Positions 38,414 through 58,863 of a DNA stretch of 64,000 nt are shown here, one piece after another. Every line of letters starts with the position of its first letter. Within the stretch, counting starts at the first letter, position 1. The stretch is from assembly GCF_026191915.1 (NCBI RefSeq), contig NZ_JAIMBY010000001.1, positions 620,001-684,000 of the forward strand. Direction: 5' to 3'. The notes beneath the pieces are model-generated. The model made no database searches and had not been told where the DNA came from. It was given only the letters and a program-made list of their open reading frames with translations. Source of the DNA: Acidiphilium sp. PA. Lineage in GTDB: Bacteria > Pseudomonadota > Alphaproteobacteria > Acetobacterales > Acetobacteraceae. The translations under genes were made by a program, and so were the position numbers.

Positions 38414-39664
38414 TCACTTGACCGGGCATACACCCAGCTTGTTGGGCGTACCGGCCGGGTGAACCTGAGCTGCCAGCGGTGCAGTCCCAAAGCTCGATGG
38501 CGGGTTGGTCGGAAAAGCGGTCTTACCGGCGGGATAACAGTTCGACGCCAGAAGATAGGCCATGACCTCGGCGTATTCGCCGGGCTTGAGCGAACCGGGA
38601 TTATTGAACGGCATGTTCTGCGTCACGATCGTGTTGAGAATCGAGACGGTGTATTTATTGCTCGCCGCGGTTTTCAGGAACTCCGTGCCGGCGATCGCGG
38701 GCGCCGCGACGCCCTGCAGATTGGCGCCATGGCAACTGGCGCAATTGGTGGCATATACTGCCTTACCGCTGGCCGCCTGGGCCGCCGTGTAGAGAGCCGG
38801 GCTCGCCGCGGTGTGCGCCGCTGCATCGATCAGCAAGGACGGGCGCTTGGCGGGGAGGGTGTCGGCCACCGGCCTGATCATCGCGGGCGCGGCCGCATGT
38901 TTCGTGGTGGCTGCCGCCGCATGGGCGGCGCAGTGGTGCTGCACCATCGGTGCCGCGGCAGTGTAGAGAACCAGCATACCATTTTCCTTCTTGACGGATG
39001 CGGTGCCTGTCGCCGGAATCGACACGGCACCGGGTTTCACGGCGTGCCAGATTAGCCAGCCGTGATGAAGACCATAACCGACCGCCTTGGGTGCCGCGCA
39101 GCCGTTCGCCGTCGGGGCGCCATCCGGCACCGCGAGGCTGGTGTTGGCAATCGCGCCCAGCATGCCGCCGAGCACGTCGTACTGGCTGGTGCGACCCTCC
39201 GCGACTTCGAGGTTTTCGAGCGCGCTGGATGATGCGGTCTGAAATGCGTTGAGGCCGCGTGCCTTCACAGCTTCCTGCAGATAGGCGACGGCGGCGAGTT
39301 CGTTGACCTGCACGCCGTGCAGCGCGGGGACGTAAGGCGGCGTCGCTGTCTGGTCGAGCAGGGCGTTGACCTGGCCCATCGAGCCGGTGGCATCACCGGG
39401 GTTGGGCACATGCGGGTCGAACGCCGGGTCCTTGCTGCCAACGAGCGCATTGATGGCACTCTGCGCCGCCCGGACGTAATTGGCGGGGCCGCTGGTCGTG
39501 CCGTTCTCGGCCGCCATAATGGTGGAAATGGCAACCTGGATATCGGCCAGGGCGGCGGCCGCGCGCGCATGCGCCGATGGCGAGGCGGTGGCGGCGAAAG
39601 CAGCAGGGGTGGCAAATGCCACCCCTGCGCCCAGGATCAATCCGATCCGGTTCGCCCGCCTCAT
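38414..39664 (-). CDS. Secreted cytochrome c with long N-terminal extension, partner of quinoprotein
   Basis: 416 residues with signal (ends PAAFA). The first about 270 residues are a helical, unrecognised region rich in Ala, with a His-rich stretch (QHHCAAHAAAATTKHAAA). A class I cytochrome c domain follows with CASCH in YATNCASCHGANLQG and a likely distal Met in TQNMPFNNPG. The start overlaps the quinoprotein stop (ATGA), so it is the obvious electron acceptor of that enzyme, like the cytochrome subunits of PQQ alcohol dehydrogenases. The N-terminal domain may hold the pair together or bind metal; unknown. Confidence 0.82.
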   Translation of the reverse strand: MRRANRIGLILGAGVAFATPAAFAATASPSAHARAAAALADIQVAISTIMAAENGTTSGPANYVRAAQSAINALVGSKDPAFDPHVPNPGDATGSMGQVNALLDQTATPPYVPALHGVQVNELAAVAYLQEAVKARGLNAFQTASSSALENLEVAEGRTSQYDVLGGMLGAIANTSLAVPDGAPTANGCAAPKAVGYGLHHGWLIWHAVKPGAVSIPATGTASVKKENGMLVLYTAAAPMVQHHCAAHAAAATTKHAAAPAMIRPVADTLPAKRPSLLIDAAAHTAASPALYTAAQAASGKAVYATNCASCHGANLQGVAAPAIAGTEFLKTAASNKYTVSILNTIVTQNMPFNNPGSLKPGEYAEVMAYLLASNCYPAGKTAFPTNPPSSFGTAPLAAQVHPAGTPNKLGVCPVK

Positions 39665-41331
39665 TTCGAAAGGGTGAACATTGTCAGCATGGTGCCTTTA
39701 TTGTCTTTCGGCATCGTCGGCAGTTGCTGGTTGCCGGCTGGGCCGGACGCGACCGCGACATACTCGGTGCCGCCCTGGGTAAAGGCGACCGGCGGAGCGA
39801 TGATCGGCGAACCAGTGTCATAGCTCCACAATTTCTTGCCGCTGTCTCCATCGAACGCGGCGAAATCGCCGTTTTCCATGCCGGTGAACACCAACCCGGT
39901 CGAGGTCGAGAGCGCGCCGCCGGCCATCGGCAGTTTTTCCGGCTTGCGCCAGGCGAACACGCCGTTGCTCACGTCGATCGCATTGAGCTGCCCGGTGTTC
40001 GGACCGACGAAGGTCGGGAACGCACCGCCGAGGTAGAACTGTCCGGCGATGTAGACCACCGATTTGGTCGATTTCCAGAAGCCGCACTCGTTGCTGCTGG
40101 GCAGATAGATCATGTTGGTCTTGGGGTCGTAGGTACCGCCGTTGTATTCGACGCCGCCATTGGTGTTCGGGCAGGCAACGTTGCCTTTCAGGGACGGATC
40201 GACCTTCTGGTGATATTGCATGCTGACCTGCAGATGATTGACCAGAGCGCCGGTCTTTGAGTTCAGCAGCCAGAAATTGCCGGCCTTGTCACCATCGGCC
40301 ACCAGCGGCATCACCTTGCCGTCGACCTTGCCGTTGAACAGCACCGGCGGCATCACCGGATCCCAGTCATGCGTGTCGTGCGGAATGAACTGGTGATACC
40401 AGACCAGCTTGGGCTTGGCACCGGAAATATTCAGCGCCACCAGCGAGTCGCTGTAGAGGTTACTGCCTTTGCGGGCCGGGCCGTTGAAATCCGGCTGCGG
40501 GTTGCCGGCGTTGGCATAGAGCATGTCGGTTTTCGGATCGATCGCCATCATGGTCCAGACCGCGCCGCCGCCGCGCTTCCAGCTGTCGCCGCTCCAAGTC
40601 GAATGACCCTTCTGGCCCGGGCCGGGAACCGCGTTCCACTGCCACAACTCGTCGCCATTGGCGGGGTTATAGGCCGCAACATTGCCAATGCCGCCCCAGT
40701 CGCCGTTCGAGACGCCCAGGATCAGCATCGCCTTGCCGGTCTTGGGGTCCTTATAGGGCAGCGGCGCCATGGTGTAGAATGAGTTGGCCGGGTCCTTGAC
40801 CAGCAGCTTGCTGAATACGACCTTGCCGGTATTCGCATCGAGCGCGATCAGCTTACCATCGAGTGTCGCGATATAGACCTTGCCATCCAGCAGCGCGATG
40901 CCGCGGTTGGCGGCGAACGCGATCACATGCGGATTGTCGGAAAACTGCCATTTCAGCTTGCCGGTCTTCACGTCGATTGCGTAGACGTGATCATGCGCGG
41001 AGCTGATATAGGCGGTGCCGTGCCAGATGATCGGCGCCGCTTCGATCGGGCCGTTGTCATCGATCTTGAAGGTCCACGCCGGCTTGAGTTTCGTCACGTT
41101 GGCCGGCGTGATGTCGTTCAGATCGACATAGCGATCGTTGTTGTAGTTCTTGGCCGGCAGGATCCAGTTCGAATGATCGCCCTGGGTCGAGACGTAATCC
41201 TTCAGCGTCGGTGTGGTGGTATTGGCCATGGCACCGGCATAGGCAAGACCGCCGAGGCCGATCGCAAGTGCGGCGCCGGCAATGCCCGCCATGATCGCGC
41301 GTTTGCGCCGATGAGTTCTGGTTTTTTCCAT
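39661..41331 (-). CDS. Divergent PQQ-dependent alcohol dehydrogenase-like quinoprotein
   Basis: 556 residues, exported (RRKR then a hydrophobic run ending LAYAG). Eight-bladed propeller with Trp-docking repeats (YAIDVKTGKLKWQF, IALDANTGKVVF). The catalytic region reads PHDTHDWD: catalytic Asp plus a second Asp two residues on, as in lanthanide enzymes. However, the adjacent-Cys disulfide of most PQQ dehydrogenases is absent (AFAANRGIALLDG), the metal-ligand Glu of GGEYG is Asp in SNGDWGG, and Lys (GDKAGNF) stands where methanol dehydrogenases have Arg. Substrate uncertain, probably an alcohol. Coupled to a cytochrome c. Confidence 0.85.
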   Translation of the reverse strand: MEKTRTHRRKRAIMAGIAGAALAIGLGGLAYAGAMANTTTPTLKDYVSTQGDHSNWILPAKNYNNDRYVDLNDITPANVTKLKPAWTFKIDDNGPIEAAPIIWHGTAYISSAHDHVYAIDVKTGKLKWQFSDNPHVIAFAANRGIALLDGKVYIATLDGKLIALDANTGKVVFSKLLVKDPANSFYTMAPLPYKDPKTGKAMLILGVSNGDWGGIGNVAAYNPANGDELWQWNAVPGPGQKGHSTWSGDSWKRGGGAVWTMMAIDPKTDMLYANAGNPQPDFNGPARKGSNLYSDSLVALNISGAKPKLVWYHQFIPHDTHDWDPVMPPVLFNGKVDGKVMPLVADGDKAGNFWLLNSKTGALVNHLQVSMQYHQKVDPSLKGNVACPNTNGGVEYNGGTYDPKTNMIYLPSSNECGFWKSTKSVVYIAGQFYLGGAFPTFVGPNTGQLNAIDVSNGVFAWRKPEKLPMAGGALSTSTGLVFTGMENGDFAAFDGDSGKKLWSYDTGSPIIAPPVAFTQGGTEYVAVASGPAGNQQLPTMPKDNKGTMLTMFTLSK

Positions 41332-44036: not shown

Positions 44037-46151
44037 CTAAAACCTATACTTCGCCGTCGCCCCCAAAACAAAATTCCGTCCCGGCGAAGGCTCATAATAC
44101 TGCCCATTATTCGCAGCAACGACGACCGCGCCGACATAGGTCCGGTTGAACAGATTATCGACCCGCGCGAATTCATCGAACCCGAATTTGCCGATCGTCT
44201 GGCGAAACCCGCCGGCGATACCTGCGGTGAAATAGCCGGCGGCGTAGGCGGAGTTCTGATTGTCGACATACATCCGGCTCTGCCACTGGCCATCGACCGA
44301 GGTATAGAAACCGCTGGCCGGATCATGCCAGCTTACCTCGGTAAAGATGCGCTGCTGCGGCACGCCGGGCAGCGCCTTGCCGGCAATCGCGCTGTGCTGG
44401 AAAAACGCCTTCAGCAGCGTGTACGAGCCGTATAATTCGATGTGGTGCGGCAGAAAACTGTCGACACTGGCATCGACACCGTTGCGCCCGGTCTGCCCTT
44501 CGTTGGCATAGGCGGTGCGCCCGTTGTTCGAGGACGATACCACGATCTGATTATTGGTATGAATATGAAACGCCGCAACTTGCACATAGGTGCGCGACCC
44601 GAGCAGGGATTTGATGCCCGCCTCGTAATTCTGGCTGGTGGTCGGCACCAGGGCGGCGTTGAACCCCGCCTCGCCGTTCGGCAGATAGGCGAGCTGGTCG
44701 AGGGTCGGCGTCTCGAACCCTTCGCCATAATCGGCGAACAGATTGGTGGTCGGTGTCAGATGATAGGTCGCGCCCGCGACCAGGCTGGTGTGCGAATAGC
44801 TGACCGAACCGGTGTCATTGGTCAGTTTCGGCGTCACGTACAGATCCTGCACGCTGAAATAATCCTGGCTATGCCGCAAACCGGCGTCGAAAATGATGTT
44901 CGGCGTCAAATTCGCGTTGATTTGCGCATATTCGGCGATGTTGCGCGCAATATCCTGCTCGTTGCGCCGCAACGCACCGACCGTGCCGTAATTATTCACA
45001 TAGCCTTTGCGGTGCTGATCCTCATACCCGAAATCGACCCCCGCGACCGCGGTGATCGGCACGCCCGCGATCTGGTCCTTATGCGTAAATCGCGCGCCGA
45101 CGCCGCCCGATTTGCGCGCGAGATCGACCACCCCGCCGCCGGATGCCGCGAAACTGCCGGTGAACGGCAAATATTGCAGCACGTCGTGGTTCACGTCGTA
45201 TACCAGCAGGCGGATGCTGTTATCGGCATCGATCCGGTGGCGCATGATGAAGCCGAACTGGAAATGCCGCAGCGATTTGCGGGTGTCGAACTTCACCGCG
45301 CCGTTGCCGGCCGCCTGCGGATCGGCATGATATTGCGCCGCCGTCAGCCCGCCGGGATCGAGCGAGCGCGGCTCGTTCAGCGCATCGACCAGCAAGGTAT
45401 AGCTGGTGTCGGCATCGACCTGCACCCGATACTTGCCGTAAAACTGCTGGCGCCGCGCCGCGCTGTGATCGCGATACCCGCCGGAATAGAAATCCGATGC
45501 GTTCATCATGTAGTTGAACGAACCATCGGCGCCGAATTTCCGCGTCCCGCCATAGGATGCGCTGGCCCTCCAACTGCCGTAGCTCGCCGCCAGAATACCG
45601 CCGCTCACGGTCGGCACCGCCGGCCCATCCTTGCTGAAAACCTGGATCACGCCACCAGCGGCGTTGCCGTACAGCACCGAAAACGGCCCGCTCAACACCT
45701 CGATCCGCGATACGTCGCCGAGATCGATCACCTCCGAATCGCCGGTGCCATCGGGTTGCGTCGCCGGCACGCCATCGATCAGGATCTTGACGTTGCGGGT
45801 GCCGAACGCGGTCTGCGCGCCGAACCCGCGCGAGGTGATGCGCACGCCGGTCGCGTAGTTCTGCTGGTTCTGCACATCGATCCCGGGTACCCGGTCGAGG
45901 CTTTCCGACAGGTTCTCCTGCTCGTTCGCCGTACGCACCTGCCGGCCCGTTACGGCGTAGATCGAGACCGGCACATCGAAGCTCGACTGGCGGGTGCGCG
46001 TTGCGCTGACCACGATCCGCTTGATCGCGATCGCCCCCGGCGAGGGAATGATCACCGGCGGCGCGGTCTGCGCCCAGGCAGCCAGCCCGACGGAACAAAG
46101 CGCCGTGCCCGCAAGCAGCGAGACGGCGCCACGCGCCAGCCGTGCCGGCAT
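44037..46151 (-). CDS. TonB-dependent outer-membrane receptor, PqqU/YncD-like
   Basis: 704 residues. Signal peptide (ends LAAWAQ), plug domain (SLDRVPGIDVQNQQNY, ITSRGFGAQTAFGTRN, IDGVPATQPDGTGDSE, RIEVLSGPFSVLYGNAAGG) and 22-strand barrel ending in an aromatic residue (AKYRF). The plug wording, LDPGGLTAAQYHADPQ, RKGYVNNYG, YGEGFETPTLDQLAY and the C-terminal YYEPSPGRN closely follow what I recall of E. coli YncD/PqqU, the PQQ importer. Its ATG shares a base with the formaldehyde dehydrogenase stop, tying it to the xoxF gene set. A lanthanophore receptor is the alternative. Confidence 0.85.
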   Translation of the reverse strand: MPARLARGAVSLLAGTALCSVGLAAWAQTAPPVIIPSPGAIAIKRIVVSATRTRQSSFDVPVSIYAVTGRQVRTANEQENLSESLDRVPGIDVQNQQNYATGVRITSRGFGAQTAFGTRNVKILIDGVPATQPDGTGDSEVIDLGDVSRIEVLSGPFSVLYGNAAGGVIQVFSKDGPAVPTVSGGILAASYGSWRASASYGGTRKFGADGSFNYMMNASDFYSGGYRDHSAARRQQFYGKYRVQVDADTSYTLLVDALNEPRSLDPGGLTAAQYHADPQAAGNGAVKFDTRKSLRHFQFGFIMRHRIDADNSIRLLVYDVNHDVLQYLPFTGSFAASGGGVVDLARKSGGVGARFTHKDQIAGVPITAVAGVDFGYEDQHRKGYVNNYGTVGALRRNEQDIARNIAEYAQINANLTPNIIFDAGLRHSQDYFSVQDLYVTPKLTNDTGSVSYSHTSLVAGATYHLTPTTNLFADYGEGFETPTLDQLAYLPNGEAGFNAALVPTTSQNYEAGIKSLLGSRTYVQVAAFHIHTNNQIVVSSSNNGRTAYANEGQTGRNGVDASVDSFLPHHIELYGSYTLLKAFFQHSAIAGKALPGVPQQRIFTEVSWHDPASGFYTSVDGQWQSRMYVDNQNSAYAAGYFTAGIAGGFRQTIGKFGFDEFARVDNLFNRTYVGAVVVAANNGQYYEPSPGRNFVLGATAKYRF

Positions 46152-47260
46152 CAGTAGACGACGACGCTGCGAATGCTCTCGCCTTTGCGCATCAGCTCGA
46201 ACCCCTCGTTGATCTGTTCGAACGGCAGCACATGCGTGATCAGGTCGTCAATGTTGATTTTGCCATCCATATACCAATCGACGATCTTCGGTACATCGGT
46301 CCGGCCGCGCGCGCCGCCGAACGCCGTGCCGCGCCAGTTGCGCCCGGTCACCAGCTGGAACGGCCGCGTCGAAATCTCCTGCCCGGCGCCGGCCACGCCC
46401 ACGATGATCGAGGTGCCCCAGCCACGATGGCAGCATTCCAGCGCCTGGCGCATCACTTTCACATTGCCGATGCACTCGAAGGAGAAATCGGCCCCGCCGT
46501 CGGTCAGGTTGACCAGATAGGGTACCAGATCCTCGCCGATTTCGGACGGGTTGACGAAATGGGTCAGCCCGAATTTCTCAGCCATCGCCTTGCGGCCGTT
46601 GTTCAGATCGACGCCGATGATCTTGTCGGCGCCTGCAATCCGCGCGCCCTGGATGACGTTCAGCCCGATGCCGCCTAGGCCGAAAATCACCACATTGTCG
46701 CCCGGCTGCACCTTGGCGGTGTTGATCACCGCACCGATGCCGGTCGTCACACCGCAGCCGATGTAGCAGATCTTGTCGAACGGCGCGTCCTCGCGCACCT
46801 TGGCCAGCGCGATTTCCGGCAGCACGGTGAAATTCGCGAAGGTCGAGCAGCCCATATAGTGCATCACCGGCTCACCCTCGCAGGAGAAGCGGCTGGTGCC
46901 GTCCGGCATCACGCCCTTGCCCTGGGTCGCGCGGATCGCGGTGCACAGATTGGTCTTGCGCGACAGGCACGATTTACATTGCCGGCATTCCGGCGTGTAA
47001 AGCGGAATGACGTGATCGCCTTTTTTCAGCGTGGTCACGCCGGGCCCGATATCGACGACGATCCCGGCCCCCTCATGGCCCAGAATCGCCGGGAACAGAC
47101 CTTCGGGGTCCGCGCCGGACAGCGTGTATTCATCGGTATGGCAGATGCCGGTGGCCTTGATTTCCACCAGCACCTCGCCCGCCTTCGGGCCTTCGAGCTT
47201 GACCATGCCGAGGTCGAGCGTCTTGCCTGCTTTCCACGCAATCGCGGCGCGAACGTCCAT
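46151..47260 (-). CDS. frmA: S-(hydroxymethyl)glutathione dehydrogenase (class III alcohol dehydrogenase)
   Basis: 369 residues, zinc-dependent medium-chain dehydrogenase. Catalytic zinc Cys in ATGICHTDEYTLSG and GHEGAG, structural zinc loop CRQCKSCLSRKTNLC, nucleotide motif IFGLGGIGLNVIQGA, and the class III-specific C-terminus FELMRKGESIRSVVVY. It oxidises S-hydroxymethylglutathione to S-formylglutathione with NAD. GGGGA upstream of ATG 47260. It follows gfa by 18 bases and is coupled to the TonB receptor. The S-formylglutathione hydrolase that normally follows is not in the window. Confidence 0.95.
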   Translation of the reverse strand: MDVRAAIAWKAGKTLDLGMVKLEGPKAGEVLVEIKATGICHTDEYTLSGADPEGLFPAILGHEGAGIVVDIGPGVTTLKKGDHVIPLYTPECRQCKSCLSRKTNLCTAIRATQGKGVMPDGTSRFSCEGEPVMHYMGCSTFANFTVLPEIALAKVREDAPFDKICYIGCGVTTGIGAVINTAKVQPGDNVVIFGLGGIGLNVIQGARIAGADKIIGVDLNNGRKAMAEKFGLTHFVNPSEIGEDLVPYLVNLTDGGADFSFECIGNVKVMRQALECCHRGWGTSIIVGVAGAGQEISTRPFQLVTGRNWRGTAFGGARGRTDVPKIVDWYMDGKINIDDLITHVLPFEQINEGFELMRKGESIRSVVVY

Positions 47261-47278: not shown

Positions 47279-47851
47279 TTAAGCTGCGAGAGCGCCCGAG
47301 GCTTTCGCCACACTCGTGGCGATAGCGTCCATCAGCGGCGGCGACAAGCAGTCGTACGGCTCAAGGCCGAGTTCCTTCAACCGCGCGCGGATGCCCGCCA
47401 TTTCGGCCGGCGGCGTGCCCTGCTCGATCACCGAGGATACGAAAGCGGCGAATTCCGGCGCCGACCAGCCGGTCTCGTCGGACAGTTCGGTGTGGACGAA
47501 GTCGAGCCCATAGAACGGATGCGCCTTGTTCTCGATCCGGCCGAACATGTGCACGCCGCACTCGCGGCAGGCATGGCGCTGGATGGTCGCGTTGGGATCG
47601 ACGATGTGCAGCTTGCCGCCGTTTTCCGTCACATGCACCGCCTCGCGCGGGACGACAGCGATGATCGCGAATTTCGCGCCGGCCGGCTTCCAGCACTTCG
47701 AGCAGCCACAGGCATGGTTATGCGCTGTCTGCGCATCGATTTTCACGGCCACCTTGTGGCTGGGGCAATGGCAATGCAGCGTGCCGCCCGCAAAGCCGGA
47801 CGCGCCTGGTTTGATCCCGTGATCGATCGACGGGTGAAGAGCGATGGGCAT
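47279..47851 (-). CDS. gfa: S-(hydroxymethyl)glutathione synthase
   Basis: 190 residues, glutathione-dependent formaldehyde-activating enzyme. Zinc-binding Cys residues are in [19 protein letters not shown] and [11 protein letters not shown]. It speeds condensation of formaldehyde with glutathione, making the substrate of the next enzyme in the operon. Length matches the family. GGGAGAA lies before ATG 47851. Confidence 0.94.
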
Positions 47852-47911: not shown

Positions 47912-48679
47912 TCAGTGCTTCGGTGTGCCCTGGTGGACCACCGCAACCGCGCGGGCATCCGTGTATTGGTAGATCGCCTTGATCTGGTGCGGTGTGAAAA
48001 ATCCCGCCCAGCTCGGCATGCCCTTGGCCTTGACCCCGGTCATGGCGATACTGAGGAACTTGCTCTCGGTCATGCCGTTGTTGAGTGAGTTGCGCAGGTT
48101 CGGCGCATAGGAACCACCATCGGCATCCGCGCCGTGGCAACGAAAGCAGTAGGAATTGAACAGTTCGTAGCCCCGGAACACCGTCGGCGTCACTTTATCG
48201 GTTCCCTTCTGAAAGATCGGGAAACTGGTGGTGACCGTCTTGCCCTTCACGGTGTAGGTGAATTTCTGCCCCGATGCTGCGCCGCCGGCTGCGGTGGTGC
48301 CGGGCTTTTTCAAGGTCAGGATCCAGGAAACGATCTCCTTGGTATCGGCCGCACTCAGCTGCGGGTGCGCCGGCATCGGCACATTGCCCCACGTGCCGAC
48401 GTGGCCTTTCATGATCGCGTCGCTCAGCGTCGTCTCCGCCCCGCTCTTGCCGGCAAATTTGGCGGCCACCGCATCGAAGGCCGGCCCCACGATTTTCTGG
48501 TTGATCGCGTGGCACGAAAAGCAGTCACTGCCCTTGGCCAGCATCTCGCCCTTGGGCATCGCGGCCGCCGTGCCGCTGCCTGAGGTATCCGCCGCGTAGC
48601 TGGCCATCGTGACCAGAGCCGCGGCAGCCACGCCAAGCACGCCGGCGCCGACGATGGTGGGGATCGATCTAATCTTCAT
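47912..48679 (-). CDS. Diheme c-type cytochrome, XoxG-like electron acceptor
   Basis: About 255 residues with an export signal (ends MASYAA). Two heme motifs: CFSCH in AKGSDCFSCHAINQKIVGP (a c551/c552-type domain with Met in NVPMPAHP) and CFRCH in LFNSYCFRCHGADADGG (methanol-dehydrogenase cytochrome style). XoxG is normally monoheme; the extra N-terminal heme domain is a fusion. ATG 48679 with AGGA five bases upstream is preferred to the ATG five codons earlier. It sits after the xoxJ-like gene and should take electrons from XoxF. Confidence 0.87.
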   Translation of the reverse strand: MKIRSIPTIVGAGVLGVAAAALVTMASYAADTSGSGTAAAMPKGEMLAKGSDCFSCHAINQKIVGPAFDAVAAKFAGKSGAETTLSDAIMKGHVGTWGNVPMPAHPQLSAADTKEIVSWILTLKKPGTTAAGGAASGQKFTYTVKGKTVTTSFPIFQKGTDKVTPTVFRGYELFNSYCFRCHGADADGGSYAPNLRNSLNNGMTESKFLSIAMTGVKAKGMPSWAGFFTPHQIKAIYQYTDARAVAVVHQGTPKH

Positions 48680-48707
48680 GCGTCCTGCTCTCATCCAGAA
48701 GTTTCAG

Positions 48708-49568
48708 TTACTGATTCGGAAAATTGACGTGCCGCGGGTTCGCCATCAGCTTGACGTCGTATTTCGCAAGCGTTGCGGCGATTTCGGTCTTGTGCGTGGC
48801 AATCACCTTGTCGAGCGCATCCTTCAGGGCCGTATCGTGCTTTCGCACCCCCATCGACATGCCATAGGTGTAGTTCACCGTCGGCAGGCCGGGCCCGTAT
48901 TCCTCGGATGGTACGCGCGCCATCTGCAGATCGGGGTAATCCTTAAGGAAATCGCCGATAGCGGGCTCCCACGTGATCATCACGCCAACCTTGCCGTCCT
49001 GCACCGCCTGCAACAATTCCCGGGGCGAGGCGGTTGGATTGCTGGCGACGTGAAACGGCACCGCATTGCCGATCAGGTCGAGCAGTTTGATCGCGGTTTC
49101 GGGCGTCGTATCCTCCTCGAAGCCGATCTTGACCATTTTGAGCGAGACCGAATTCATCGAGCGGATGTGCAGATGCTTATCCTTGCGGGTGATGAACACG
49201 TAGGACGACCGGTAATACGGCTTGGTGTAACCGTCTTCGTGATCGCCATACGGCAGGTTCATCACGACATCGCATTTGCGCGCGTCGAGATTTTCGGCGA
49301 GGAAATTCGAGTAGCCGCCATGACCGCGATAGCTCGCCCAGGTGTATTCGAGCTTGCGCCCCATCGCCTTGGCGACCAGTTCGGCCACCTTGTTCTCGAA
49401 ACCCTGTCCGGCGCGGTTCGAGTAGGGCAGGTAATCGGGATCGGCACAGACCCGCAGGACGTGGCTGTTTGCGGCAGGCTCGGCATTGGCGGCAGCGGCG
49501 TGCGACACGCCCGCGCCGGCGATGGCCATCGCGCCGAGCATTGCCCAACGAAAAGCCGGATTTTTCAT
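48708..49568 (-). CDS. xoxJ: Periplasmic solute-binding-like protein XoxJ/MxaJ
   Basis: 286 residues, signal peptide (ends GVSHAAA). Type 2 periplasmic-binding fold: LRVCADPDYLPYSNRAGQGFENKVAELVA is the hallmark of the MxaJ/XoxJ branch ('LRVCADPnnLPfSn..gqGFEnkiA'), with VVMNLPYGD and VMITWEPAIGDFL further on. It is encoded between xoxF and the cytochrome, as in methylotrophs, and is thought to help mature or load the dehydrogenase. GGAGTG precedes the ATG. Confidence 0.9.
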   Translation of the reverse strand: MKNPAFRWAMLGAMAIAGAGVSHAAAANAEPAANSHVLRVCADPDYLPYSNRAGQGFENKVAELVAKAMGRKLEYTWASYRGHGGYSNFLAENLDARKCDVVMNLPYGDHEDGYTKPYYRSSYVFITRKDKHLHIRSMNSVSLKMVKIGFEEDTTPETAIKLLDLIGNAVPFHVASNPTASPRELLQAVQDGKVGVMITWEPAIGDFLKDYPDLQMARVPSEEYGPGLPTVNYTYGMSMGVRKHDTALKDALDKVIATHKTEIAATLAKYDVKLMANPRHVNFPNQ

Positions 49569-49670: not shown

Positions 49671-49704
49671 AAAAAACCAGCCCGGGCAGGGGAACCCGGG
49701 CTGG
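49671..49704 (-). terminator. Intrinsic terminator/attenuator after xoxF
   Basis: On the minus strand a perfect 10 bp stem CCAGCCCGGG / CCCGGGCTGG with an 8-base loop is followed at once by six U residues. It lies 15 bp past the xoxF stop and before xoxJ, so it would make xoxF mRNA more abundant than the downstream genes. Confidence 0.85.
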
Positions 49705-49718
49705 ATCGTCAGACGTGA

Positions 49719-51560
49719 TCAGTCCGCACTGGCCACTTTCGAGGGCAGCGCAAACACCATCAACGTACCGCCAAGGTTCGTATAGTCGGTCAGCGTCGCG
49801 TTCAGCCCGACCGCGCCAAGACCTGCACTGGCCTTGTGCAGATTGTCGGCCATGCCGATCGCGGCCCAGCCACCCACGCCACTCAGGATCGCAACATACT
49901 GCTTGCCATCATGCATGTAGGTGATCGGGTTGCCGATGATGCCCGACGGGGTCTTGAACTGATACAGGATTTTGCCCGTCTTCGCGTCGACCGCACGGAA
50001 CATGCCCTTCAGCGTGCCATAGAACGCGAGCCCGCCGCCCGTGGTCATCGCACCGCCCCAATCCTGGAACATATCGTGCTGCTGCCACACGGTCTTGCCG
50101 GTCACCGGGTTGTAGGCAATGAACCGGCCCCGATAGCCGCCCGGGCCCGGGATCATGTTCACGATCGCACCGACGAACGGGAAGCCTGATTTGTACTTCA
50201 CGTTGAACGCCTGATAGCTCATGCACAGGTGGTTCAGCGGCGCATAGAACAGTTTGGTCTGCGGATCGTAGGAAACCGGCTGTTCGTCCTTGTCGCCCTG
50301 CGAAGCCGGGCAGATGTCTTTCACATCCTTGCCATTGCTGGTCATCTTGGCGGGATCGACGATCGGCTCATTGGTTTTCGGGTCGATCCCCGTCGCCCAG
50401 TTCACCGACGGATCGTATTTGTGAATCGCAATCGGCGCGCCGGTTGCGCGGTTCATCACATACGAGAAGCCGTTACGGTCGAAATGCACCAGCGCCGGCA
50501 CGGTCTTGCCGTGATCATCGACATTGGCGAGCACCATTTCATTGACGCCGTCATAATCCCAGCCGTCGTGCGGGGTCATCTGATAGACCCACTTGGCTTC
50601 ACCGGTTTCCGGGTTACGCGCCATGATGGTCATCGACCAGCGGTTCTTGCCGGGGCGCTGGCTCGGGTTCCACGTGCCCGGGTTGCCGGTCCCGTAGTAC
50701 ATGAGGTTCAGCTTCGGATCGTACGAAAACCAGCCCCAGGTCGTGCCGCCGCCGACTTTCCACTCATTGCCCTGCCAGGTCTTGATGCTGGAATGCGCGC
50801 CGATCGGCTTGCCGGTCGCACCGTTGATGGTGTGTGTGGCGCTCATCAGCATGTCCTTGTTCGGACCTTCGCTGTAGGCGCGCCAGACCTGCTTGCCGGT
50901 TTTTGCGTCATAGGCCGTCAGGTAGCCACGTACCCCATATTCACCGCCGGCCACGCCGACGATCACGTTCTTGCCCACCACCATCGGTGCGCCGGTCATG
51001 GTCTGGCCATCCTGCGGATGCGCGTTCTTGGCTTGCCACACGACCTTGCCGGTCTTGGCATCGAGTGCGTAGAGCACACCGTCGAGCGCATCGGCATAGA
51101 CCATGCCGTCGCTGAACGCCGGACCGCGGTTCACCACGTCGCAGCAGGCAACCGGCGGCGCGTTGGAATCATGCGGCGGCTCGAATTTCCAGGCGATCGC
51201 GTCCGGATGATTGAGATCGATCGCATACACGTAATTCGGATACGATGTCTCGTAATACATCATGTTGCCGATCACGATCGGCTGCCCTTCCAGGCCGCGA
51301 TCGGTTCCGGTCGACATCGACCACGCAACCTGCAGATTCTTCACGTTGCTGGTGTTGATCTGTTTCAGCGGGCTGTAGCGCCAGTTATTGTAGGTGCCTG
51401 TCGGCATCACCCAGTTGTCGGGGTTCTTCTGCATCGACGTCAGCGAGGTGCTGGCCGGCGTCTGAGCCTGTGCGCCGAGCACGAAGGCGCCGGCACCGAT
51501 AACGCCCAGCGTCGCCAGCCTGAGCGAACGACTCAGCGACGATCCTCCTAGTTTTGCCAT
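49719..51560 (-). CDS. xoxF: Lanthanide-dependent PQQ methanol dehydrogenase XoxF
   Basis: 613 residues with signal (ends VLGAQAQ). All quinoprotein methanol dehydrogenase landmarks are present: adjacent Cys pair in PVACCDVVNRG, metal-ligand Glu in GGEYGVRGY, Asn in GTGNPGTWN, and PHDGWDYDGVNE with catalytic Asp and the extra Asp two residues on that marks lanthanide-binding XoxF. The PQQ-contact Arg is in FDRNGFSYV. It oxidises methanol (or formaldehyde) in the periplasm. GGAGG is seven bases from ATG 51560. Preceded by a sigma-54 type promoter; followed by a terminator and xoxJ, cytochrome, gfa, frmA and receptor genes. Confidence 0.96.
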   Translation of the reverse strand: MAKLGGSSLSRSLRLATLGVIGAGAFVLGAQAQTPASTSLTSMQKNPDNWVMPTGTYNNWRYSPLKQINTSNVKNLQVAWSMSTGTDRGLEGQPIVIGNMMYYETSYPNYVYAIDLNHPDAIAWKFEPPHDSNAPPVACCDVVNRGPAFSDGMVYADALDGVLYALDAKTGKVVWQAKNAHPQDGQTMTGAPMVVGKNVIVGVAGGEYGVRGYLTAYDAKTGKQVWRAYSEGPNKDMLMSATHTINGATGKPIGAHSSIKTWQGNEWKVGGGTTWGWFSYDPKLNLMYYGTGNPGTWNPSQRPGKNRWSMTIMARNPETGEAKWVYQMTPHDGWDYDGVNEMVLANVDDHGKTVPALVHFDRNGFSYVMNRATGAPIAIHKYDPSVNWATGIDPKTNEPIVDPAKMTSNGKDVKDICPASQGDKDEQPVSYDPQTKLFYAPLNHLCMSYQAFNVKYKSGFPFVGAIVNMIPGPGGYRGRFIAYNPVTGKTVWQQHDMFQDWGGAMTTGGGLAFYGTLKGMFRAVDAKTGKILYQFKTPSGIIGNPITYMHDGKQYVAILSGVGGWAAIGMADNLHKASAGLGAVGLNATLTDYTNLGGTLMVFALPSKVASAD

Positions 51561-51649
51561 TTAATTTCCTCCAGTTACGCGGCCGCGCCGTCAGGCAAAG
51601 TCCGCAAGTCGTTCATTGGGAGCCGGATTTGCCCGGCCGCATTTCCATC

Positions 51650-51666
51650 AGCAAGGATCATGCCAA
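51650..51666 (-). promoter_or_regulatory. Sigma-54 promoter of xoxF
   Basis: On the minus strand TTGGCATG-ATCC-TTGCT matches the consensus YTGGCACG-N4-TTGCW with one mismatch; GG and GC are at the required -24/-12 spacing. Predicted transcription start is about 80 bases before the xoxF ATG. Confidence 0.75.
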
Positions 51667-51739
51667 AACCACCGCTCGTCGCCCGGGTCACTAACTCCAA
51701 GGCGCGCACCCGTTCGACGCCCCTCGCCCATGACAGGTC

Positions 51740-51768
51740 TGTCACGCAGTCTTCAATCCTGCGTGACA
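51740..51768. promoter_or_regulatory. Upstream activator site candidate (perfect 10+10 dyad)
   Basis: TGTCACGCAG-N9-CTGCGTGACA, centred about 100 bp upstream of the sigma-54 promoter and about 90 bp from the activator gene start. A second palindrome TGACAG-GT-CTGTCA (51731-51744) overlaps its left end, repeating the TGTCA half-site. Position and form suit an enhancer-binding protein such as the divergent AcoR-like regulator. Confidence 0.65.
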
Positions 51769-51841
51769 ATATGCCCCAAAAGATGTGACACTCTGCTACA
51801 CTTGCGTGCAGCGGTCGCAATGTTATGTCTGACCGGGAAAA

Positions 51842-53929
51842 ATGGGGAAAACGTCCAGCATGACCCACGCCGCAACGGCAAGATCACCCTGGCTCGATCA
51901 GCGCACCCTGAGCCCCGAGGGTCTGGCAGCCGCCAGCCCCCAGCCACGCCCGGTCGCACGACCCGGGTCAGGTGCCGCCGTGCGTCTGCGCGAACCCTAT
52001 GTTCCGCGTGAAGCCTATATCGAGGCCGCCTGGCAGCGCTGCCGCGATATCTATCATCTTGACCCCGATCATCCGCCGCCAGGCGAGCACATCGGCGGCG
52101 CGGCGCTGAAACTGCTCAGAGAAGAGCGCGGCCTGTTCGAGCGGGTCGGCCGGGTCGAAATGCACCGCCTGCTGGGGCAGATCAATCATCAGGTCACCCA
52201 ATCCGCCGCCCCCTCGCGGTATGTGCTGATGCTGGCGGATGCCTCGGGCGCCATTCTCGATGCGTTTACCGACAGCGCCAACACCGATTGCGCCCGCACC
52301 GCCAATATGGCACCGGGGTTTCTCTGGAACGAGCGCCACGCTGGCGTCAACGGCCCGGGCACCTGCCTGCACGATCGCCGCGCCCGTGTCGTACATCGCG
52401 AAGACCATTATTTCACCCGCAACAGCCGCATGACCTGCTCGGCCGCGCCGATCTGGGGTGCGAACGGCACCTTGCTCGGCGTGCTCGACGCCTCCTCCCT
52501 CGATTGCGACGACAGCCGCGCCGCCCAGGTGCCCACCATCGCTCTGGTCAGCATGTCGGCCCGCATCATCGAACAGATGCACTTCACCCATAGCTATCGC
52601 GACTGTCTGATCCTGCGCTTTCACGAGCGCCCCGAACTGGTCGGCCTGCCCTACGACAGCCTGTTGGCGATCGACGAGCACGGCACCATCCGCGCCGTCG
52701 ACAGCACGGTGCCCGGCCAGCTCGGCAAAGCCGACCACACCGCCCTGCTCGGCCGCAGCGTCGCCGAATTGTTCGATCTCACGACCGATCGCCTGTTCGA
52801 ACACGCCGAAGCCGAACCCTTCGCGATCTGGCCGATCGCGCATGGCGCCGACCGCCATGGCTTCGCCAGTATCTGGCCCGCCAAACAGGTCCGCCCGCGC
52901 GCCCGCGCCGGCCTGCCCGGCAGCACCGCGCAATCCGGCAGCGGCAAGTCCAGCGCGGCACCGCGCGCCATCGCCAGGCCGCAACGGCCCGCCACCCCTC
53001 CGCTCGCCCGCTTCGCCGGCACCGACCCCGTGATGGCCGACAACGTCTGGCGTGCCGAGCGCGTGATGAACCGCGACATCAACATCCTCCTGCTCGGCGA
53101 GACCGGCACCGGCAAGGACAGTTTCGCCCGCGCCATCCACCGCGCCAGCGAGCGCCACGCCCAACCCTTCATCGCGATGAGCTGCGCCGCCATCCCCGAA
53201 CAGCTCATCGAGAGCGAATTGTTCGGCTACGAGGCCGGCGCCTTCACCGGGGCCCGCACCGGCGGCATGCGCGGCAAGGCGCTCGCCGCCCACGGCGGCA
53301 CCCTGTTCCTCGATGAAATCGGCGACATGCCGCTCTCCATCCAGGCCCGCCTGCTGCGCCTGCTCGAAGAGAAGGAGATCGTCCCGCTCGGCAGTTCGAC
53401 GCCAATCCCCGTCGATATCCGCGTCATCAGCGCCACCCACCGCGACCTCGAAGCCCTGGTCGCCAGCAACGATTTCCGGATGGATCTGTTCTACCGCCTC
53501 AATGGCGTCACCCTCACCATGCCGCCCCTGCGCGCCCGCGCCGATCGCGCCGCCCTGATCGAGCAGATCTGCCGCGAGGAAGCCTCGAGCGACATGACCA
53601 TCGCGCCGGACGCCACGCGCGATCTGCTGGCCCATGACTGGCCCGGCAACATCCGCGAACTACGCAACACGCTGCGCACTGCCATCGCCTTCGCCGAAGG
53701 CGGCATCATCGAACGCAGCCACCTGCCGCGGCTGCACAACACGGCGGCACCCAAGCCGTCCCTGCCTGCCACCATACCGGTGACCCCGCCGGACGAACGC
53801 GCCCATATCGTCGAGACGCTGGAACAACACCATTGGCGCATCGCAGCCTCCGCCGCCGCCCTCGGCATCAGCCGCAACACGCTCTATCGCAAAATGCACC
53901 GCTACGGGCTGATGGCCGATGGCACCTGA
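51842..53929 (+). CDS. AcoR-like sigma-54-dependent Fis family transcriptional activator
   Basis: About 695 residues (ATG 51842; ATG 51860 possible). N-terminal GAF sensor of the AcoR type (NERHAGVNGPGTCLHDRRAR, SAAPIWGANGTLLGVLDASS), a PAS-like segment (about 270-340), AAA+ domain with Walker A LLGETGTGKDS, the sigma-54-contacting loop GAFTGA (EAGAFTGARTGG), Walker B GGTLFLDEIGD, and a Fis helix-turn-helix (RIAASAAALGISRNTLYRKM). There is no receiver, so it likely senses a small molecule directly. Divergent from xoxF, which has a sigma-54 promoter. Confidence 0.93.
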   Translation: MGKTSSMTHAATARSPWLDQRTLSPEGLAAASPQPRPVARPGSGAAVRLREPYVPREAYIEAAWQRCRDIYHLDPDHPPPGEHIGGAALKLLREERGLFERVGRVEMHRLLGQINHQVTQSAAPSRYVLMLADASGAILDAFTDSANTDCARTANMAPGFLWNERHAGVNGPGTCLHDRRARVVHREDHYFTRNSRMTCSAAPIWGANGTLLGVLDASSLDCDDSRAAQVPTIALVSMSARIIEQMHFTHSYRDCLILRFHERPELVGLPYDSLLAIDEHGTIRAVDSTVPGQLGKADHTALLGRSVAELFDLTTDRLFEHAEAEPFAIWPIAHGADRHGFASIWPAKQVRPRARAGLPGSTAQSGSGKSSAAPRAIARPQRPATPPLARFAGTDPVMADNVWRAERVMNRDINILLLGETGTGKDSFARAIHRASERHAQPFIAMSCAAIPEQLIESELFGYEAGAFTGARTGGMRGKALAAHGGTLFLDEIGDMPLSIQARLLRLLEEKEIVPLGSSTPIPVDIRVISATHRDLEALVASNDFRMDLFYRLNGVTLTMPPLRARADRAALIEQICREEASSDMTIAPDATRDLLAHDWPGNIRELRNTLRTAIAFAEGGIIERSHLPRLHNTAAPKPSLPATIPVTPPDERAHIVETLEQHHWRIAASAAALGISRNTLYRKMHRYGLMADGT

Positions 53930-54868: not shown

Positions 54869-55663
54869 TCACTTACAGGCCATCACCGCCCGCCGCGCCA
54901 TCACCCCCACCAGATGCGCCCGATACGCCGTCCCGGCATGGATATCGCCGTTCATCAGGCTCTCCGGCGTCGTCACATCCTTCAGCGCATCGGCGGTGAA
55001 GGATTGATCGAGCGCCGCCTCCATCGCCGCATGGCGGAACACGCCGTCATTGCCCGCGCCCGTCACCGCAACCCGCGCGCCCTCGGCGGTCTTGGCGACG
55101 AACACCCCTACCATCGCATAGCGCGAAGCCGGGTTTGGGAATTTGGCATAGGCCGCCTTTTCCGGGATCGGAAACGACACTTCAGTGATCAACTCGTCCG
55201 GCTCCAGCGCCGTGGTGAACATGCCCTGGAAATAATCCGCCGCCGCAATGCGGCGCCTGCTCGTCACGATCGTTGCCCCCAGCGCCAGCACCGCCGACGG
55301 ATAGCACGCCGACGGGTCGTTATTGGCGAGCGACCCGCCGATCGTGCCGCGATAACGCACCTGCCGGTCACCAATGTTGCCGGCCAGCGTCGCCAGCGCC
55401 GGAATCGCGCTCGCCACCTCGGATGACATCGCCACTTCACGATGCGTCGTCATCGCCTTAATCACCAGCGCATTGCCCTCGCGCCGGATGCCGGTCAGGC
55501 CGAGACCCGCCAGATCGACCACCGCACTCGGCTTCGCCAGGCGCTGCTTGAGCACGGGAATGAACGTCATGCCGCCCGCCAGCGCCTTCGCCTCCGCATC
55601 GGCGCCGAGCGCCTTGACGGCATCGTCGATCGCGCCCGGCTTGTGATATTCAAAATCATACAT
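54869..55663 (-). CDS. Molybdenum hydroxylase FAD-binding (medium, CoxM-like) subunit
   Basis: 264 residues. FAD-binding PCMH-type: AKALAGGMTFIPVLKQRL ('aGGqsLlp.mk.Rl'), GNIGDRQVRYRGTIGGSLANNDP with TIGG loop, and a C-terminal CO_deh_flav_C domain. It transfers electrons from the Fe-S subunit to an acceptor. GGAG before ATG 55663 decides the start. Last gene of the S-L-M operon; a repeat element follows its stop. Confidence 0.92.
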   Translation of the reverse strand: MYDFEYHKPGAIDDAVKALGADAEAKALAGGMTFIPVLKQRLAKPSAVVDLAGLGLTGIRREGNALVIKAMTTHREVAMSSEVASAIPALATLAGNIGDRQVRYRGTIGGSLANNDPSACYPSAVLALGATIVTSRRRIAAADYFQGMFTTALEPDELITEVSFPIPEKAAYAKFPNPASRYAMVGVFVAKTAEGARVAVTGAGNDGVFRHAAMEAALDQSFTADALKDVTTPESLMNGDIHAGTAYRAHLVGVMARRAVMACK

Positions 55664-55676
55664 CGCTCTGTCTCCT

Positions 55677-58082
55677 TTACTCGGCGGCCATGCGCGGCGC
55701 GCCCGCATTGATGATCGACCATATCTTCTGCGGCGTCGCCGGCATATCGATATGGCTCACGCCATAATCGCGCAACGCATCGACCACCGCATTGATCACC
55801 GCCGGCGGGCTGCCGATGGCGCCGACTTCGCCGACTCCCTTGGCGCCGAGCGGGTTATGGGTGCACAGGGTCGATTCCGTGCCGACATGGATATTCACGA
55901 CATTGTCCGCCCGCGGCATGGTGTAATCCATCAGCGACCCCGACAGCAGCTGCCCGGTCTCGTCATAGATCGCATGTTCCAGCAGCGCCTGCCCGATCCC
56001 CTGGGTGACGCCGCCATGCACCTGACCGTGCACGATCATCGGATTGATCACCCGCCCGATATCATCCACCGCGGTGAACCCGATCAACTGCACCACACCG
56101 GTATCGGGGTCGATCTCGACCTCGCAGATATGGCAGCCACCCGGAAAGGTGAAGTTCTTCGGATCATAGAACGCCGTCTCGTCGAGCCCGGGCTCGACCT
56201 CCTCGATCGGGTAGTTATGTGGCACATAGGCCGTAATCGCGATTTCGGCGAAGCTCTTCGACTTGTCGGTGCCGGCGACGGTGAATTTGCCGTCCTTGAA
56301 CTCGATGTCGTCGACCGCCGCCTCCATCAGATGTGCCGCGATCTTCTTGCCCTTGGCGATGATTTTATCCATCGCCTTGACCATCGCCGAACCACCGACC
56401 GCGAGCGACCGGCTGCCATACGTGCCCATGCCGAACGGGATTTTGGCGGTATCGCCATGCACCACCTCGACACTTTCGAACGGCACGCCCAACTGGTCCG
56501 CCACCAGCTGCGCGAATGTGGTTTCATGCCCCTGGCCATGGCTGTGCGTGCCGGTGAACACCGTGACCGATCCGGTCGGGTGCACCCGCACATTCGCCAC
56601 CTCATACAGCCCGGCCCGCGCGCCGAGCGCGCCCGCCACCGCCGAAGGCGCGATGCCGCACGCCTCGAGATAGGTCGACATGCCGATGCCGCGCAGCTTG
56701 CCCCGTTTGGCCGCCGCCGCCCGCCGCGCCTCGAACCCGTTCCAGTCCGCAATCTCCATGCAGCGCGCCAGCGTCGCCTCGTGGTTGCCGCTGTCATACA
56801 TCAGCGCAACCGGCGTCTGGTACGGATAGGCATCGATCGGAATGAAGTTCCGCCGGCGGATCGCCACCCGGTCCATCCCCATTTCCTTCGCCGCGACATC
56901 GACCAGCCGCTCCAGCAGAAACGTCGTCTCCGGCCGGCCCGCACCACGATACGCATCGACCGGCACGGTATTGGTGAACACCGCCTTCACCTCACCGTAA
57001 ATCGCGGGCGTGGTATAAACCCCGGCCAGCAGCGTCGCGGACAAATAGGTCGGCACCGATGGCGCGAATGTCGACAGATACGCCCCCATGTTCGCCATCG
57101 TGTTCACCCGCAGCCCGAGAAACTTGCCATCCTCGGCCAGCGCCAGCTCGGCGTGGGTGATATGATCGCGCCCATGCGCATCCGTAATAAACGCCTCGCC
57201 GCGCCCGCAGGTCCATTTCACGGGCCGGTTGATCTGCGCGGCCGCCCAGGTCACCGCCGCTTCCTCGATGTAATGGAAAATCTTCGCGCCGAACCCGCCG
57301 CCGACATCGGGTGCCACCACCCGCAATTTATGCTCGGGGATCTGCAGCACGAACGCACCCATCAGCAGCCGGATCACATGCGGATTCTGGCTCGTGGTAT
57401 ACAGCGTGTGCTCGCCCGATGATTGATCGAAATCACCGATCGCGGCGCGCGGCTCCATCGGGTTCGGGATCAACCGGTTGTTCACCACATCGATCCTGGC
57501 CACTTTGAACGCGGTCGCGAACGCCGCATCCACCGCGGCCTTGTCGCCGATATGCCAATCGAAACAAATATTGCCCGCCGCCGCGTCGTGCACCAGCGCG
57601 GCCCCCGGCGCGGTCGCCGCCCGCATCTCGGAGACCGCCGGCAAGGATTCGATGTCGATCACCAGCGCCTCGGCGGCATCCTTCGCCTGCTCGGTGGTCT
57701 CGGCAATCACCATCGCGATCGCATCGCCCACGTAGCGCACCTTGCCTTGCGCCAGAATCGGGTGCGGCGGCTCGACCATCGGTGAGCCGTCCTTGCTGTG
57801 CAACTGCCAGCCGCACGGCACGCCGCCGATGCCCGCCTTGGCGATATCCTCGCCGGTATAGATCGCAACCACCCCCGGCATCGCAGCGGCCGCCGCGGTA
57901 TCGATCGATTTGATCACGCCATGCGCCACATCGGAGCGCTTGAAATACGCATAGGCCTGACCCGGACGATTGATATCGTCGGTATAGCGGCCCTTGCCGG
58001 ACAGAAACCGGTGATCCTCGGTGCGCTTCGGCGAATCACCGATGCCACCCTTGATGATCACCGGATTTGACAGATCGTTCAT
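55677..58082 (-). CDS. Molybdenum hydroxylase large subunit, form II CO-dehydrogenase-like
   Basis: 801 residues. Full xanthine-oxidase-family large subunit: [33 protein letters not shown], active-site loop [29 protein letters not shown], and catalytic Glu in [16 protein letters not shown]. The loop is AYRGAGR (form II), not AYRCSFR of genuine CO dehydrogenase, so CO oxidation is unproven and the substrate is unknown. It binds Mo-cytosine-dinucleotide type cofactor. CGGGAG precedes the ATG. Confidence 0.92.
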
Positions 58083-58148
58083 GGATACGCTCCCGTTTTA
58101 TTGAACCCGCGCCGAACGATACCGGCGCGGCAGCACCCAGCCGCTCTT

Positions 58149-58646
58149 TTATTCGGCGGCTTGTGGCATTTGCTTGTCGTGCATCAGCGGCCAGGCCGCC
58201 GCGATCGCCTTGACGATATTATGATAGCCGGTGCAGCGGCAGATATTGCCCTCCAGACCCTCGCGGATCTGCTGCTCGGTCAGACCATCGGGGTGGCTTT
58301 CGACCAGATCGATCCCGCTCATCACCATGCCCGGCGTGCAGAAGCCGCACTGCAGACCGTGATGCTCGCGGAACATCTCCTGCATCGGGTGCAGCGTGCC
58401 ATCGGCCGCCGCGAGCCCTTCGATCGTGATGACCTGCGCGCCCTCGGCCTGGACCGCGAGCATGGTGCACGATTTCACCGATTTGCCGTCGACCGACACC
58501 ACACACGCGCCACACTGGCTGGTGTCGCAGCCGACATGAGTGCCGGTCAGATGCAGGTGGTCGCGCAGCAGCTCGACAAGCAGCGTCCGTGACTCGACCT
58601 CGGCATGCGCTGCCTTGCCGTTCACCGTGAGATTGATTTGGGCCAT
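58149..58646 (-). CDS. Molybdenum hydroxylase [2Fe-2S] (small, CoxS-like) subunit
   Basis: 165 residues with plant-ferredoxin [2Fe-2S] cysteines ([21 protein letters not shown]) and the second, helical cluster domain ([28 protein letters not shown]). It relays electrons from the Mo centre to FAD. CAGGAGGA lies seven bases before ATG 58646. First gene of the operon (S, L, M order). Confidence 0.95.
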
Positions 58647-58863
58647 TGGTTCCTCCTGGCTGATCGCCTCATGATGATGGCGCGGCAACGGTTTGGTCAA
58701 GAGCGGTATACCCCGGCAAAGCCGGTCGAACCAGTTTTTGAAACAATGTCTTCACAGTTTTTTGCGGGCAAACAACCTTCCTCCTCATTTTTGGACCGCC
58801 CAACCAGCCGCTCGGCCGAGCCGAAGCCTTTCCGCGCGCGCACCGGGCTGGTATCGAACGCGC

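Follow-up and report, generated by a model that had tools for sequence, protein, structure and literature searches.

The regulators described for xoxF and pedH are two-component or response-regulator systems, namely MxcQE, MxbDM, MxaB, MxaY and PedS2/PedR2 (PMC6115532). Like the regulator proposed here they act on xoxF or pedH transcription, but they serve the Ca/lanthanide switch whereas the one described below would be a one-component protein working with sigma-54 (PMC6115532).

One-component activators of sigma-54 promoters are known from neighbouring oxidation steps. BmoR, the alcohol-responsive activator of the butane monooxygenase promoter (Pbmo) of Thauera butanivorans, forms a hexamer, binds an upstream activating sequence, acts through DNA looping and has no phosphorylation site, as is proposed for the activator studied here (PMC8899819, PMC11967783). 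Compared by description, it differs in its target (an alkane monooxygenase), in its inducers (C4-C6 alcohols) and in its activating sequence, which is an inverted repeat located about 193 bp before the -24/-12 element where the present one is a direct repeat. MmoR is also a sigma-54 activator encoded with its C1-oxidation operon and grouped among the GAF-containing activators (PMC5874634); its target, again compared by description, is mmoX of the soluble methane monooxygenase and not a methanol dehydrogenase. The AcoR/EatR family has an architecture identical to that of the present activator, with members encoded beside acetoin dehydrogenase and eutB, but it differs from the xoxF-linked clade in its targets and is separated from it with full support. 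Finally, exaA of Azospirillum brasilense encodes a quinoprotein alcohol dehydrogenase and is, as proposed here for xoxF, sigma-54-dependent, its regulator being of the LuxR type (Singh et al. 2017, as summarized in PMC6115532).

In the open-access literature searched, with subscription papers largely outside it, no report was found of control of xoxF or methanol dehydrogenase by sigma-54, RpoN, AcoR or an enhancer-binding protein. The initial annotation of this DNA had proposed a distinct and undescribed system. The target, a lanthanide methanol dehydrogenase, appears to be new, whereas one-component sigma-54 control has precedents in MmoR, BmoR and AcoR; because MmoR and BmoR precede it at neighbouring oxidation steps, the locus appears to apply an established kind of switch to a new and important target. 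In bacteria of two families, a dedicated sigma-54 activator would explain, directly and in a testable way, how XoxF is regulated outside a few model methylotrophs, above all where MxaF and hence a Ca/lanthanide switch are lacking.

The methanol-oxidation unit

The window (the whole stretch of 64 kb that was analysed) contains on its minus strand a unit of six genes starting with xoxF (49719-51560), which encodes a PQQ methanol dehydrogenase of 613 aa. This protein falls in the PQQ methanol/ethanol family and its closest solved structures are the XoxF of 6oc5 and 6dam, with whose WDFDG and WDYDG its own WDYDG is aligned. The lanthanide Asp is present two residues past the catalytic Asp, and on family match, structures and the W-D-Y-D residues the enzyme is assigned to the lanthanide type. 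The next genes, all on the same strand, are xoxJ, for a periplasmic binding protein (48708-49568; TIGR03871 with 208.0 bits, cut-off 212.15), an xoxG-like gene for a di-haem cytochrome c (47912-48694; domain and family matches), gfa, for S-(hydroxymethyl)glutathione synthase (47279-47851; TIGR02820, over the cut-off), and adhC, for S-(hydroxymethyl)glutathione dehydrogenase (46151-47260; TIGR02818, over the cut-off). The last one encodes a PqqU-like TonB-dependent receptor (44037-46151; 551 bits against a cut-off of 1200), which ends the unit in four members of the genus. This receptor may serve the uptake of a lanthanide carrier or the scavenging of PQQ. Its interpretation as a sign of PQQ auxotrophy was discarded, pqqE being present in the genome and in all the xoxF-bearing relatives tested.

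The gap between xoxF and xoxJ contains a strong terminator-like hairpin (49677-49704, minus strand; an 11-bp stem followed by T6), identified also in the sister species and absent in four other members of the genus. Because it precedes xoxJ, the genes downstream of xoxF may be only partly coupled to it, and xoxF may be made in excess over the rest of the unit, with a high xoxF:xoxJ ratio.

No second gene of the MxaF/XoxF class was identified in the genome at E<=1e-150, and therefore no Ca/lanthanide switch would be needed. A search of the unit and its conserved neighbourhood identified no sensor kinase/response regulator pair.

Outside the unit, the minus strand of the window carries a second, divergent PQQ-type dehydrogenase gene (39661-41331), under the family cut-off, with a cytochrome c-like gene right after it (38414-39664). 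Downstream of the activator and of a pentapeptide-repeat gene, three further minus-strand genes (54869-58700) resemble the medium, large and small subunits of what we take to be an aerobic CO dehydrogenase-type enzyme. This trio adjoins the unit in the sister species too.

The xoxF promoter

A near-perfect -24/-12 promoter had been noted before xoxF, and this observation stands. The site (TGGCATGATCCTTGCT; TGGCATG-ATCC-TTGCT at 51650-51665, minus strand) has a single mismatch against TGGCACG-N4-TTGCW and is located 105 bp upstream of the xoxF ATG (51560); from the position of the -12 element, transcription is predicted to start at about 51639. Its consensus score, 18.5 of 20.9, is the best of the window by about 5 bits (runner-up, 13.6). 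Both the -24 GG and the -12 GC are present with the 4-bp spacing, and they are invariant in the aligned members of the genus. The strict pattern TGGCAYG-N4-TTGCW was found at 13 sites in the whole genome (4.5 Mb) and the reversed control pattern at none. For the 281 bp between xoxF and the divergent gene, read on the xoxF-sense strand, the chance expectation is about 1e-4 to 4e-4. Since an equally good window-wide best match was reached in 10 of 100 random windows, the case for this promoter is built on its position and on its conservation together with the activator. The genome contains one copy of rpoN (E 2.5e-63).

The characterized xoxF systems are of other types (PMC6115532), which would agree with a xoxF expressed mainly by a two-component system or a promoter of conventional type, the sigma-54 element being then a minor or nitrogen-responsive input (through another enhancer-binding protein such as NtrC). 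However, the region yielded no sigma-70-like site, the genomes with the sigma-54 site are those with the AcoR-type activator and the enhancer described below is unique to these promoters, so that such a scheme is considered highly improbable and sigma-54 control by the neighbouring activator is preferred.

In eight members of the genus the leader of xoxF (51558-51649, minus strand) has two stems, a small hairpin of conserved sequence (GCCGG-RCAAAT-CCGGY) and another one rich in GC. A structured and possibly lanthanide-sensing leader was considered and rejected: none of the Rfam families scored up to its gathering threshold and covariation is negligible. The covariance model built on the leader recovered the same genus plus weak or chance matches, one of them a weak match to a leader of the second genus described below and another one inside a coding gene.

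The divergent activator

The gene divergent from xoxF (51842-53929, plus strand) encodes an enhancer-binding protein of 695 aa placed in the AcoR family by domain matches, model and tree. Its layout comprises a helical N-terminus, a GAF domain, a PAS-like domain, an AAA+ domain with GAFTGA and a HTH of the Fis type (HTH_8). Pfam matches to Sigma54_activat, GAF and HTH_8 confirm the AcoR-like activator of the initial annotation, and the domain scan gave no match to a receiver domain. A PAS match was obtained in the relative from Nevskia. The nearest annotated plasmid-borne relative is EatR, with 40% identity.

A tree of 55 relatives unites the xoxF-linked activators of the window's family in a single clade (support 100/100), apart from the members located beside acetoin dehydrogenase, eutB or other quinoprotein dehydrogenases. 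Four residues of the sensor region (H177, D178, C222 and C255) are private or nearly private to this clade. Because no acetoin genes were found beside the activator and it belongs to a clade of its own, it is filed as a paralogue within the AcoR family and not as AcoR.

The sensor region was modelled with AlphaFold (residues 50-395, mean pLDDT 80), and the closest PDB fold by far was DhaR(N) bound to DhaK or DhaL, DhaR being a paralogous family. Of the GAF-sensing methanol unit suggested initially, the GAF domain is confirmed, but DhaR, the nearest solved fold of the sensor, is controlled by protein partners and not by a free small molecule. A variant of the proposal with the same promoter and enhancer, where the signal would be a protein partner (as in DhaR) or the supply of lanthanide or PQQ, draws on this fold, on the PqqU-type receptor that closes the unit and on the case of M. 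extorquens, where XoxF itself feeds into regulation (PMC6115532). Against it, no DhaK- or DhaL-like gene was seen in the unit, the relatives of the activator adjoin small-molecule pathways such as acetoin dehydrogenase (L157, L158), ethanolamine lyase (L041) and other quinoprotein dehydrogenases, and the periplasmic XoxF would not be directly visible to a cytoplasmic sensor. This variant is regarded as possible but rather unlikely. The most likely inducer would be methanol or formaldehyde, since the targets identified are genes of methanol or formaldehyde oxidation.

The upstream enhancer

Phylogenetic footprinting of the aligned intergenic regions identified a conserved bipartite element, a direct repeat CAGA-N-TGTCnC...TGTCAC with a step of 21-22 bp. 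In the window this element (CAGAGTGTCACATCTTTTGGGGCATATTGTCAC) occupies 51763-51795 on the minus strand, with half sites at 51785-51790 and 51763-51768 (22 bp apart), the second one 103 bp before the -24. With small variations it was present at the 14 promoters examined (14/14), which are those of xoxF and of the cytochrome/adhC operon in three genera. A search with the strict pattern gave exactly one match in the 4.5 Mb of the window's genome. In the first two genera, each further genome with an intact activator had one or two matches, whereas the searched genomes without the activator had zero and the reversed control pattern never matched. One strict match in G221 had no identified target. 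The sites of G094 and G196 are variants outside the strict pattern, and in G196, a member of the genus, the second half site is degenerate.

Half site 2 lies 81-83, 91-94 or 103 bp from the -24, i.e. in steps of about one helical turn (Rayleigh p ~0.002 over nine lineages, with a test picked post hoc). No convincing IHF site was found between enhancer and promoter. The element presumably serves as the defined upstream binding site of the activator.

The enhancer also sits 47-79 bp before the start codon of the activator (51842), a location that would suit a role mainly in autoregulation of the divergent gene. That is the least probable of the readings, as the element was identified as well at xoxF promoters away from the 5' end of the activator (G058, G134, G183 and G094). 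Autoregulation could coexist with the control of xoxF, which is the function preferred for the enhancer.

A perfect dyad had been reported upstream of the promoter. The inverted repeat TGTCACGCAG-N9-CTGCGTGACA is indeed exact at 51740-51768, but it is not the conserved operator, and as main operator it was rejected because only its left arm (in minus-strand sense) is strictly conserved. One arm (51759-51768) is half site 2 plus its flank and so the only part of the dyad in the direct repeat, and the other (51740-51749) is a third, poorly conserved half site (GTGACA, minus strand). The sister species keeps just the outer TGTCAC...GTGACA, and other species have lost the right arm. The 64 kb contain about ten inverted repeats of at least 10 bp and a short loop, so the perfect dyad is not exceptional by itself. 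With regard to the conservation in relatives that had been suggested as a check, the promoter is conserved together with the activator whereas the dyad mostly is not.

Conservation in the genus and the family

The activator was identified in seven further members of the genus. Five of them (G096, G153, G328, G232 and G309) have the divergent activator-xoxF pair intact on a single contig, with the full xoxF-xoxJ-xoxG-gfa-adhC-receptor series in four; the contig of G096 stops after xoxJ. The unit is divided between contigs in G382 and G196. In every activator-bearing member a sigma-54 site with a score of 16.3-19.9 precedes xoxF by about 105-110 bp, and five other members of the genus lack both xoxF and activator.

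Orthologous activators, mostly with about 58% identity, were identified in a second genus (G058, G134, G183 and G221) and in a third one (G094), the latter as two fragments on separate contigs. In the second genus the activator is located between xoxF-xoxJ and a cytochrome c/adhC operon. A perfect TGGCACG-N4-TTGCA precedes this operon in the four genomes (4/4), and in all three from which xoxF was recovered this gene has a separate sigma-54 site. The promoters on either side of the activator thus both carry enhancer and sigma-54 site.

The sigma-54 site is conserved alongside the activator and covaries with it across genomes. It was present in 12/12 sampled xoxF loci from genomes with the orthologous activator and, over the same cutoff, in 1/27 same-family xoxF loci without it, the exception scoring 14.4 bits (Fisher p ~3e-9, for loci that are not phylogenetically independent). 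Counted by genus, the figures are 3/3 against 1/25 (p ~0.001). Second xoxF copies in G328 and G382, whose genomes contain also the regulated copy, have no comparable site. This comparative evidence is strong, and it supports the initial proposal that xoxF is controlled by sigma-54 and a dedicated activator encoded divergently, unlike the two-component control of the described systems.

Proposed mechanism

From the sequence comparisons above, it is very probable that the xoxF unit is under sigma-54 control by the neighbouring AcoR-family activator through the tandem TGTCnC enhancer. The 281-bp region between both genes would be the control region, where a hexamer of the activator would bind the tandem element on a fixed face of the helix, some 80-125 bp before the -24. 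The GAF/PAS region would receive a signal of methanol oxidation, and the activator so signalled would reach the sigma-54 polymerase through DNA looping, its GAFTGA loop and ATP hydrolysis opening the xoxF promoter. Transcription is expected to pass through the xoxF-xoxJ hairpin, so that the genes behind xoxF, i.e. xoxJ, xoxG, those of glutathione-dependent formaldehyde oxidation and the TonB receptor, would also be switched on. The activator is apparently dedicated to the xoxF unit in the window's genome, with the strict site only there, and in the second genus it would additionally serve the promoter of the cytochrome c/adhC operon. If this is true, methanol oxidation in such bacteria would be tightly off without inducer, and the compact activator-promoter pair might work as a sensor of methanol or formaldehyde.

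A second family and a possible regulatory module

A contig scan with the activator alignment was swamped by the conserved AAA+ domain, yet it yielded loci from Dyella and Nevskia. Among Rhodanobacteraceae, Dyella ginsengisoli and at least six relatives encode a different AcoR-type activator with 42% identity. Its gene is convergent with a xoxF-xoxJ-xoxG-adhC-gfa-TonB receptor series and lies at its end or close to it; in one of these units gfa was undetected. A TGGCACG-N4-CTGCA site (17.7 bits) precedes xoxF in the four closest and a weaker one (12.6) in one more, and further Rhodanobacteraceae have the activator beside only some of the genes of the unit or without them. The Nevskia genome contains a xoxF with a sigma-54 site (19.9) and, nearby, the activator and adhC, in a looser unit.

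Two other features were observed in Rhodanobacteraceae. The TonB receptor that also ends their unit is of another type, and the xoxF promoters of L247, L248, L249 and L262 have in common an upstream block unlike the enhancer above (AATCTGCAGCAGCGGGTGTTGCGGAATGAGCACACC), on which their own activator may act.

The activators of Rhodanobacteraceae and Nevskia fall outside the window's clade in the tree of 55 relatives, whose deep branches are poorly resolved. In the XoxF tree, the Dyella protein joins those of the window's genus and the second and third genera form another lineage. One activator clade is therefore distributed over two XoxF lineages, a pattern that a functional unit of activator, enhancer and promoter would produce. 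Most simply read, these trees indicate that XoxF came under AcoR-type sigma-54 control repeatedly and that this control moves as a module. We consider it somewhat probable that the locus represents a distinct class of control, where a single cytoplasmic AcoR-type sigma-54 activator switches on a self-contained unit of XoxF, accessory proteins, formaldehyde oxidation and an outer-membrane receptor for uptake, and which was seemingly wired at least twice (with different activator branches in Acetobacteraceae and Rhodanobacteraceae) and on two XoxF lineages.

AcoR-type activators were identified also near other quinoprotein dehydrogenases, with 36-40% identity to XoxF, in L050:16113 (-), L051:10837 (-), L156:9251 (+) and L162:9235 (-). 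These loci often hold good sigma-54 sites, which suggests that AcoR-type sigma-54 control may be used more widely for quinoprotein alcohol dehydrogenases.
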